Assembly (NCBI GenBank): GCA_017506895.1 | Contig: JAFWBV010000011.1 | Location: 1-52,295, forward strand | Reading direction: 5' to 3' | DNA from: Candidatus Saccharimonadota bacterium | GTDB lineage: Bacteria > Patescibacteriota > Saccharimonadia > Saccharimonadales > Saccharimonadaceae | DNA length: 52,295 nt | The notes under the pieces: generated by a model | The model's database searches: none | Seen by the model: only the letters and a program-made list of their open reading frames with translations | Told to the model about the DNA's origin: nothing | Part shown: positions 16,622-50,233 of the stretch, piece after piece | How positions within the stretch are numbered: the stretch's first letter is position 1 | Layout: each line of letters begins with the position of its first letter | Program-made: the position numbers and the translations under genes

Positions 16622-16708
16622 GCCCGAGTGGCGGAATTGGCAGACGCGCTAGCTTCAGGTGCTAGTGGTAGCAATACTGTGCAGGTTCAACCCCTGTCTC
16701 GGGCACCA
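16622..16708 (+). tRNA. tRNA-Leu (anticodon CAG)
   Basis: Acceptor GCCCGAG pairs with CTCGGGC, followed by discriminator A and an encoded CCA (16706-16708). The anticodon stem CTAGC/GCTAG encloses loop TTCAGGT, giving CAG for CUG codons. A long variable arm, as expected for a class II tRNA, precedes the T-arm with GTTCAAC. A weak GCCC/GGGC hairpin with a T-run at 16734-16751 may terminate it. Confidence 0.95.
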
Positions 16709-24813: not shown

Positions 24814-24889
24814 TGGTCTGGGTGACAGGACTTGAACCTGCGACCTCGACTTCCCAAAAGTCGCGCGCTACCAACTGTGCTACACCCAG
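24814..24889 (-). tRNA. tRNA-Pro (anticodon TGG)
   Basis: On the minus strand acceptor CTGGGTG pairs with CACCCAG, then A and an encoded CCA (24816-24814). The anticodon stem CGACT/AGTCG encloses TTTGGGA, giving TGG for proline. It begins with C, as bacterial tRNA-Pro does. It lies between ftsH and the surface-protein gene at 24996. Confidence 0.95.
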
Positions 24890-46862: not shown

Positions 46863-46937
46863 GGTCTCGTAGTATAGCGGTTAGTACATCGGGTTTTCAT
46901 CCCGACAATGCGGGTTCGACTCCCGCCGAGATCACCA
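46863..46937 (+). tRNA. tRNA-Glu (anticodon TTC)
   Basis: Acceptor GGTCTCG pairs with CGAGATC (one G-U pair), then A and encoded CCA. The anticodon stem TCGGG/CCCGA encloses TTTTCAT, giving TTC for glutamate. The T-arm GCGGGTTCGACTCCCGC is intact. Its 3' part is duplicated downstream in both orientations. Confidence 0.96.
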
Positions 46938-46947
46938 AGAAATAAAG

Positions 46948-46975
46948 AAAGAGCCAAAGGCTCTTTATTTATTTC
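46948..46975 (+). terminator. terminator after tRNA-Glu
   Basis: AAAGAGCC-AAA-GGCTCTTT hairpin followed by ATTTATTTCTT. Flanking AAGAAATAAA/TTTATTTCTT extends the pairing. Confidence 0.85.
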
Positions 46976-47130
46976 TTGATATTTCAAGCGGGAGAAGAAC
47001 CCGCAGGGTTCGCTCGTGGTAGGAGTCGAATAAATATCTAGAATTTATTCTAGATATTTTGAGACGACGCCCCACGATTTGTTTTCGCGCTAGCGAAAAC
47101 AAACTCCCGCCGAGATTACCAAGAAATAAA
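46962..47130. repeat. tRNA-Glu-derived inverted and direct copies enclosing a four-way cloverleaf
   Basis: 46962-47004 is an inverted copy of the tRNA-Glu T-arm, acceptor and downstream flank. 47103-47130 is a direct copy of the same region with one C-to-T change. Between them is a precise junction. Terminal stem GCGGGAG (46988-46994) / CTCCCGC (47104-47110) encloses hairpin GAACCC/GGGTTC (46997-47011). It also encloses stem TCGTGG/CCACGA (47014-47019, 47072-47077), capped by a 13-bp perfect palindrome around TCTAGA, and hairpin TTTGTTTTCGC/GCGAAAACAAA (47078-47103). The 123 bp look tRNA-like in shape but have no anticodon loop I can assign. Confidence 0.85.
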
Positions 47131-47131
47131 A

Positions 47132-47155
47132 ATAGACCCAAAGGGTCTTATTTTT
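47132..47155. terminator. bidirectional terminator, second tRNA-flank copy and AEC gene
   Basis: AGACCC-AAA-GGGTCT with a T-run on the plus side and A/T tract on the other. It resembles the terminator at 46948 but with both arms changed to keep pairing. It overlaps the stop of the gene at 47154. Confidence 0.8.
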
Positions 47156-48080
47156 ATCCAAAGAAAATCAAAATCATCACTGGCATAGTTACCACCGAAA
47201 GAAGCGTAGAAGCCACCACGAGTTCCGACGATTCGATATTATTCCCGCCATATTTAGTTGCAAAAAGACCCAGCGACGTAGCCGTGGGCAACGCTTGAAT
47301 CAAAGTGCAAACCTGAATTACTTCAATCGGGAAATGTAACGCCGTAAGCAAGCCCCAAGCAGTTAGTGGTCCCAATACCAACTGCACTAACGCCACCACC
47401 ACAAGCCGCCACTTTTTTAAAATAGTTTTAAAGTCTGCACGAGACAACATAAATCCAATACATATAATCGAAAGCGGAGTAGTAGCTCCACCAACATAAC
47501 CAACCGCATCAGTAATAAAACTAGGAAGTTTAATTCCCACAAGAAAGACAATCATTCCTAGTATTACGGCAATAATATTAGGGTTAATCACAATGCTCCT
47601 TAAGAGTTTTAACGAAACCTTATGTTCAAACAACCAAATACCATACGAAAACAATGCAATATTAAATGCAATAATGAAACCACAATAAGCAATCACGCCA
47701 CTAGGACCAAAAGTATTAACTACTATCGGATAACCAAGAAAAGTAGCGTTATTAAAAATAAAAGCAAATTGCGATTCAAAGCGTAATCCTCCTTTAAACC
47801 ACCATTCATTAAACACGACTCTAGAAATCACAATCAGCATTAGCATTACAATCACACCCGCCATCAAACCAGAAAAGAACAAGTTTAATGTAGATTCATC
47901 ATATTCCGACGGAAACGCCACAAAAAGCGAAGCTGGCATAAAAACCGTAAGCAAAAGATTCGTCAATTCTTTATTCGTGCCAGTGCTAATCAATTTCCAC
48001 TTACCAAGCAAAAATCCCAGTATTAAAATTAGTCCAATTGCTGCTAATCGCACATAAAAAGTAGACATTTCAATATTCAT
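47154..48080 (-). CDS. AEC-family transporter (auxin efflux carrier-like permease)
   Basis: 308 residues with about ten TM segments and the AEC-family pattern: N-terminal GLILILGFLLGKWKLIS, FMPASLFVAFPS, FNNATFLGYPIVVNTFG, GGATTPLSIICIGFMLSR and QALPTATSLGLFATKYG. Bacterial members move malate, lactate or other organic anions. The substrate cannot be told from sequence. A TGTTAAAAT box (48095-48087) 6 nt before the ATG suggests a leaderless mRNA. It is 20 bp downstream of ligA in the same direction. Confidence 0.88.
   Translation of the reverse strand: MNIEMSTFYVRLAAIGLILILGFLLGKWKLISTGTNKELTNLLLTVFMPASLFVAFPSEYDESTLNLFFSGLMAGVIVMLMLIVISRVVFNEWWFKGGLRFESQFAFIFNNATFLGYPIVVNTFGPSGVIAYCGFIIAFNIALFSYGIWLFEHKVSLKLLRSIVINPNIIAVILGMIVFLVGIKLPSFITDAVGYVGGATTPLSIICIGFMLSRADFKTILKKWRLVVVALVQLVLGPLTAWGLLTALHFPIEVIQVCTLIQALPTATSLGLFATKYGGNNIESSELVVASTLLSVVTMPVMILIFFG

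Positions 48081-48100: not shown

Positions 48101-50233
<2,133 letters not shown>

Follow-up and report, generated by a model that had tools for sequence, protein, structure and literature searches.

The window, as the whole stretch of 52,295 nucleotides analysed here is called, contains an intact host tRNA-Glu (TTC) gene with an encoded CCA end at positions 46863-46937. Behind it, and like it on the plus strand, lies a series of hairpins. A long, near-perfect, terminator-like hairpin designated P0 begins at the CCA end (46937-46978), and a near-identical copy of it stands behind the tRNA-Ala of the same genome. P0 is followed by an inverted copy of the tRNA 3' half (46979-46994) that supplies the 5' strand of helix P1; its T-stem part, GCGGGAG, is exact and its acceptor part is decayed. 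An unpaired link (46995-46996) leads to the P2 hairpin GAACCC-GCA-GGGTTC (46997-47011), the 3' arm of which repeats the 5' half of the host tRNA T-arm. The long P3 hairpin (47014-47077) carries a conserved internal motif, GTAGGAGYCGA/TYGAGRCGACGCC, two tandem G-A mismatches (47023/47067 with 47024/47066, and 47028/47062 with 47029/47061) and a variable terminal palindrome (47032-47059). The P4 hairpin, TTTGTTTTCGC-GCTA-GCGAAAACAAA, occupies 47078-47103. A displaced second tRNA 3' half, corresponding to tRNA positions 58-76 and identical to the first half at 18 of 19 positions, provides the 3' strand of P1 (47103-47121), and a second terminator-like hairpin is found on its 3' side (47122-47158). 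Measured from positions 58-76 of the first tRNA copy to the end of P4, one repeat unit is 184 bp in length (46919-47102).

A sequence-only reading of this DNA had described the tRNA end as being copied downstream in both orientations around a cloverleaf, and these repeats were confirmed. The arms of the inverted copy (46909-46955 and 46959-47005) are 79% identical over 47 nt, those of the direct copy (46919-46970 and 47103-47154) are 87% identical over 52 nt, and the palindrome at TCTAGA is indeed perfect over 13 bp (47032-47044 with 47047-47059). The four abutting helices that had been proposed, with 0-2 nt between neighbours, were also predicted by folding (46988-46994/47104-47110, 46997-47002/47006-47011, 47014-47019/47072-47077 and 47078-47088/47093-47103), and the second terminator, as claimed, still pairs when read from the sequence though both of its arms have changed. 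The unit 46919-47102 is predicted to fold as four abutting hairpins, which would become a four-way junction if the molecule were circular. An RNA fold of 46975-47130 gave z = -9.45 and a DNA fold of the unit gave z = -12.97, with 0 of 200 shuffled sequences equally stable in either case; in these models, the fold stability at the tRNA-Glu locus is far beyond chance. A family model applied to the window identified the tRNA-Glu copy only, plus a weak mirror match of that copy, and no copy of the element was seen in the stretches read behind the window's tRNA-Leu (16622-16708) and tRNA-Pro (24814-24889). A GC-rich stretch (49630-49698) lies in frame, as 22 protein letters, within a ligase-like open reading frame on the minus strand (48101-50209), which we take to encode an NAD-dependent DNA ligase. 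This stretch may be one of the GC-rich elements named in the sequence-only reading. GC-rich hairpins replace the P3/P4 core in some loci of relatives or of the same genome (L031, L193; loci are given here by L numbers), an arrangement that bears on a further suggestion of that reading, namely that the unit and the GC-rich elements may stem from one inverted-duplication process.

The genome from which the window derives is of the Candidatus Saccharibacteria type and was searched as 715 kb in 12 contigs, an incomplete assembly. It contains a second full copy of the unit directly behind tRNA-Ala (GGC), which is 78% identical and has its arms rewritten to fit tRNA-Ala. Counted separately from this copy, 32 tRNA 3' ends read in the genome include four with the core, three with a repeated half and no core, and 25 with neither. 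BLAST matches were obtained in 67 of 147 genomes of the genus, and same-strand tRNA genes of 13 amino-acid types end just upstream in 104 of the 111 loci read. This holds for 48 of the 51 loci of a first set (exceptions: L029, L030, L052) and for 56 of the 60 loci of a second set made up of model matches, in which no upstream tRNA was found at L107, L144, L153 and L161. In the second set, 50 of the tRNAs lie within 54 nt; the remaining six are 106-225 nt away, behind longer P0 hairpins or in tandem. Like structures, which the earlier reading had suggested seeking behind other tRNAs, are present at dozens of tRNAs in relatives as well as at tRNA-Ala in the same genome.

A covariance model (R1) built from an alignment of 39 copies (A1) matched 121 of 392 sampled genomes of the class. 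These are 88 of the 103 genomes from the genus, 25 from elsewhere in the family, three from elsewhere in the order and five from elsewhere in the class, the eight outside the family being weak matches (E 1e-4 to 1e-7); as eight candidates were scored per genome, copy numbers are lower bounds. Genuine matches among named records are Candidatus Saccharibacteria, many from ruminant guts. A spread to other phyla or viruses was considered and rejected: 37 stretches matching a short pattern, namely 33 of the 80 genome stretches among the matches listed and all four viral ones, came from other taxa, one unnamed bacterium or viruses, and none of them matched the model. No extrachromosomal, viral or plasmid copy was found in these searches. 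Queries of the open-licence PMC library, several of them narrow, turned up no account of such an element, and neither did Rfam. The ~185 bp inserts are an undescribed and widespread repeat family behind tRNA genes in Saccharibacteria, and the family is counted as miniature non-autonomous mobile DNA.

Within the family, the order of parts from the tRNA is the CCA end, P0, the inverted 3' half, a two-base link, P2, P3, P4 and a second 3' half that starts at position 58. Conservation of the stems in relatives had been set beforehand as a test of the sequence-only reading, and all stems of the family were found to covary. P2 follows the pattern GAACC..GYA..GGTTC. P3 takes the form GTAGGAGYCGA ... 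TYGAGRCGACGCC around its variable palindrome, with a covarying GYC/GRC triplet flanked by the two tandem G-A mismatches, whose four positions are conserved in 38, 37, 39 and 38 of 39 copies. An RNAalifold analysis identified 34 pairs in P3 and P4, 32 of which have double-sided changes. The partner of the inverted copy is the second half, forming P1, or the first half where P0 closes the helix; a single-stranded unit would accordingly form four capped arms.

Reduced forms and other repeats were observed as well. At the tRNA-Thr (CGT) of the window's own genome (L109), P3 and P4 are present without P0 and the inverted arm. Core-less forms occur in L186, L191 and L193 of the same genome and in L025, L028, L038 and L352; their layout is a tRNA 3' half, a hairpin, an inverted half, a few bases or a GC-rich hairpin, and a direct half. 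They could represent ancestors, products of deletion or a sister family. Another dispersed hairpin element, ~100 nt long (..GGCGCCATCTCGGCGTTTTTTC..GCTCGCT..CACTTCGC..GAAGAAAACACCAATCTGGCGCC..) stands behind tRNAs, sometimes in place of P0 (L027, L028, L051, L055, L134, L145, L172, L183), and a further repeat beginning AACGGTTTATAAAAT is found directly behind tRNA CCA ends (L175:1578-1747, L011, L135, L164, L107, L210, L315).

The P2 arm and the inverted arm resemble the tRNA behind which a copy lies more closely than they do other tRNAs. Matches were counted in 95 copies with a readable host, after 12 of the 51 first-set loci (L014, L022, L026, L028-L032, L034, L041, L042, L052; these are tandem, truncated or degenerate, or lack a core or a tRNA) and four of the 60 second-set loci had been dropped. 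Agreement between the P2 arm and the host was seen at position 57 in 92 of 95 copies (79.5 expected), at position 52 in 89 (57.3 expected), at position 51 in 81 (47.8 expected) and at position 50 in 43 (20.0 expected). None of 20,000 permutations reached the observed value at any of these positions (all p <= 5e-5). Where the host has A57 instead of G57, the copy carries an A there in seven of nine cases. For the inverted arm, a mean of 6.0 of 7 positions agree with the T-stem of the own host, as compared with 4.6 for other tRNA types; its acceptor part, by a crude measure, displays no host preference (4.13 own versus 4.08 other). The two-base link is most often GA (42), GC (24) or AA (10) among the 91 copies in which it could be parsed, four of the 95 having been left unparsed, and it complements the host T-loop in none of the 91. 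The inverted arm is thus not a plain inverted copy, and a plain snap-back copy is weakened as its origin.

At tRNA-Val (TAC), the window's own genome has an empty site (L175), and the orthologues L011 and L020 are filled. Identity is ~74% over ~880 bp of the upstream gene region, 94-100% in the tRNA and 81-85% in the downstream flank; since this flank recurs behind other tRNAs, the orthology of L011 and L020 rests on the upstream genes. Relative to the empty site, the extra DNA amounts to 189 bp in L011 and 185 bp in L020. A tRNA end of 17-19 nt aligns twice in the filled sites, the insert repeating tRNA positions 58-76. L164 presents the same pattern against L175 (185 bp), its upstream gene lying outside the compared stretch, and L210 looks like a further empty tRNA site. 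An empty/filled comparison alone does not give direction; the repeated tRNA end favours insertion over precise loss and, as judged from these alignments, the orthologous tRNA-Val site has received an insertion. For the window's tRNA-Glu, a search by way of the neighbouring permease found no empty site, the contig of the closest relative ending there.

Signs of movement are also found in the cores. Those of L007 (Glu) and L009 (Val) are 94% identical while their arms differ, and those of L016 (Arg) and L021 (Lys) are 92% identical; L009 looks chimeric in sequence, its left part being Val-type and its P2 and core Glu-type. On a tree of cores, tRNA amino-acid labels require 44 changes (shuffled mean 67.4, range 62-73) and genome labels require 83 (shuffled mean 83.9). 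Lineages thus follow the target tRNA with many switches rather than the genome, and copies within one genome are no more related than chance, so that no recent transposition burst is seen. Four allelic cases (L015, L016, L024, L128) have a displaced half that is a valid allele of other origin and mismatches the acceptor strand upstream; this half therefore appears to have travelled with the cassette. Because the half that does not fit is here the displaced one, these cases weaken a classical crossover at position 57/58 in which the upstream half would arrive with the insert. Tandem arrays of units occur in L017, L023, L038, L049 and L118 with periods of 182-194 (182, 184, 193, 194), the units of L118 being 100% identical; other loci have shorter periods of 153, 167, 173 and 77. 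The same-strand tRNAs, the empty site, the tandem arrays and the core common to different tRNAs fit the suggestion, made in the earlier reading, of a DNA element that targets tRNA ends.

That reading had also raised a structured RNA expressed with the tRNA. The element would then be an RNA gene or a 3' regulatory element, for example a tRNA decoy or processing element, with its stems kept for RNA function. Its constant position just downstream of a tRNA on the tRNA strand, its strong covariation and the resemblance of P1 to a tRNA acceptor/T minihelix with CCA agree with this role, and tandem G-A pairs are an RNA motif too. However, the strong P0 terminator precedes the element, inserts are sporadic among tRNAs and genomes with the orthologous site empty, and the unit occurs in tandem arrays. 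A known RNA family was rejected, since no Rfam match reached the gathering score except the tRNAs themselves and the best match of a permissive search (E = 0.1) fell far below it. The base pairs bear on the same question. In P3 and P4 (39 copies, 1322 cells) there are 23 G-T pairs and 17 A-C mismatches, as compared with 38 and 2 when the acceptor and T stems of 45 different tRNAs at these loci are counted (540 cells; Fisher p = 1.3e-4); P1 has 26 and 41 of 665. P3 and P4 do not have the RNA-type stem pattern, in which wobble is tolerated and A-C is not. G-T and A-C are of similar rarity here but not in the neighbouring tRNAs, which argues for folded DNA over RNA, since such a symmetry would be predicted where pairing is important at the DNA level. 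Wobble pairs are equally scarce in P0 (2.5%; cores 2.2%), which is a terminator and presumably active as RNA, and their scarcity may therefore mark any palindrome in these genomes. It is possible that a general palindrome-perfecting process, such as hairpin-templated correction, is responsible rather than DNA recognition. Given the terminator in front, wobble counts unlike those of tRNA and the Rfam result, an RNA co-expressed with the tRNA is disfavoured and is considered quite unlikely.

Palindrome correction also enters an explanation in which no enzyme mobilises the unit, namely passive template switching in replication at tRNA ends, with fold-back at the terminator hairpins followed by hairpin-templated correction. 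The direct-inverted-direct arrangement of the tRNA half would follow readily, the low wobble content of P0 would be accounted for, and the core-less forms behind Ser, Glu (CTC) and other tRNAs, consisting of an inverted half, a short loop and a direct half, resemble its products. Yet the core sequence is conserved and its internal motif hardly varies across 13 tRNA amino-acid types, the unit length is near-constant and the conserved link is never the host complement, and template switching is judged unlikely. Remnant attachment sites of integrase-bearing islands, the islands having later been deleted, would also leave a direct repeat of the tRNA 3' end, which is the usual mark of such islands, and tyrosine recombinases are common in these genomes. 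This origin is very improbable given that the ~185 bp length and the structure are conserved in 88 of 103 genus genomes, that no gene-bearing copy was noticed among the loci read, and that 13 sampled regions around second integrase genes contained no such four-helix structure at tRNAs.

The tRNA-Glu feature is best explained, with a likelihood somewhat above even, as a copy of a family of ~185 bp non-coding, non-autonomous mobile cassettes that are moved as a folded single strand by a recombinase acting in trans. In Saccharibacteria, the 3' ends of tRNA genes would be its insertion sites. Because the cassette brings its own copy of the target's tRNA 3' half, insertion leaves the tRNA intact and places a further 3' half downstream. 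The inverted half and three further hairpins would fold the single strand into a four-armed cross that serves as the recombination substrate. In this cross, the two T-arm halves would be offered in duplex form by the P1 and P2 arms, with the centre unpaired, and the strand would be marked for the recombinase by P3 and its two tandem G-A mismatches. The enzyme is possibly the near-universal Xer-like tyrosine recombinase. Searched as the broad family PF00589, tyrosine recombinases are present in 138 of 147 genus genomes, with no match in the window's own genome, an incomplete assembly. A Y1 HUH transposase (PF01797; 5 of 147 genus genomes), a reverse transcriptase (RVT_1; 87 of 147), a serine recombinase (resolvase; 55 of 99) and an IS110 transposase (2 of 99) were rejected as the mover because they are absent from the window's own genome and from many carriers. 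No gene lies inside the 184 bp unit of the window, the other enzymes are too rare, and PF00589 is widespread but unmatched in this genome. The family, its tRNA association, the insertion, the host-matched arms and the covarying structure are established by the data, and single-stranded DNA as the active form and the recombinase are what we infer.

Saccharibacteria genomes are tiny, yet most of the sampled genus genomes keep at least one insert beside essential tRNA genes. At the least, the family explains a recurring structure behind these genes. If it moved as folded single-stranded DNA, it would be a minimal mobile element that selects its target by base-pairing to it, would connect recombination of the integron type with tRNA genes and might reveal how a change of target specificity comes about. 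A tentative and on balance doubtful extension is that the family represents a new class of mobile DNA: a gene-less single-stranded cross of ~185 nt, with two interchangeable arms that reproduce the target T-arm as duplex and two recognition arms, that would be used by a host tyrosine recombinase in an integron-like reaction and have its specificity re-written when the tRNA changes.

Among known systems, elements and islands that tyrosine integrases insert into tRNA 3' ends share with the unit the insertion at the 3' half, the intact tRNA and the displaced half downstream, and a direct repeat of the tRNA 3' end flanks the insert here (17-19 nt; the displaced half is present in most copies). In contrast to such islands, the unit contains neither an integrase nor other genes (184 bp in the window; 185-189 bp in L011, L020 and L164), and to our knowledge an inverted tRNA copy and a cruciform are no part of ordinary att sites. 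The TREs of Dictyostelium are tRNA-targeting retrotransposons that prefer positions next to tRNA genes; they are eukaryotic and encode their own enzymes, whereas the Saccharibacteria unit is gene-less and its own genome has no reverse transcriptase match. Repetitive extragenic palindromes (REPs), which RAYT transposases mobilise, are like the unit in being small, non-coding, non-autonomous palindromic DNA repeats. PMC3733652 gives the REP tags as GTAG and CGTC, and by that account the P3 motif, which begins with GTAG and ends with GACG, the complement of CGTC, contains both. In the core, GTAG hardly varies (36-39 of 39 per column) and GACG stands opposite, but the pair lies inside a hairpin rather than at the foot of a 20-40 bp palindrome. 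The unit further differs from REP/RAYT in its four arms, its length of ~185 bp, its location at tRNA ends and its target-matched arms, and the corresponding Y1 transposase is found in only 5 of 147 genus genomes and is missing from the window's own. The proposed analogue of the folded strand is the attC site of integrons, where a folded single strand serves as substrate, its two duplex half-sites flanking an unpaired centre and its mismatches marking the strand. Unlike an integron cassette, the Saccharibacteria unit has no cassette gene, its target is the tRNA T-arm, and its half-sites change with the target.
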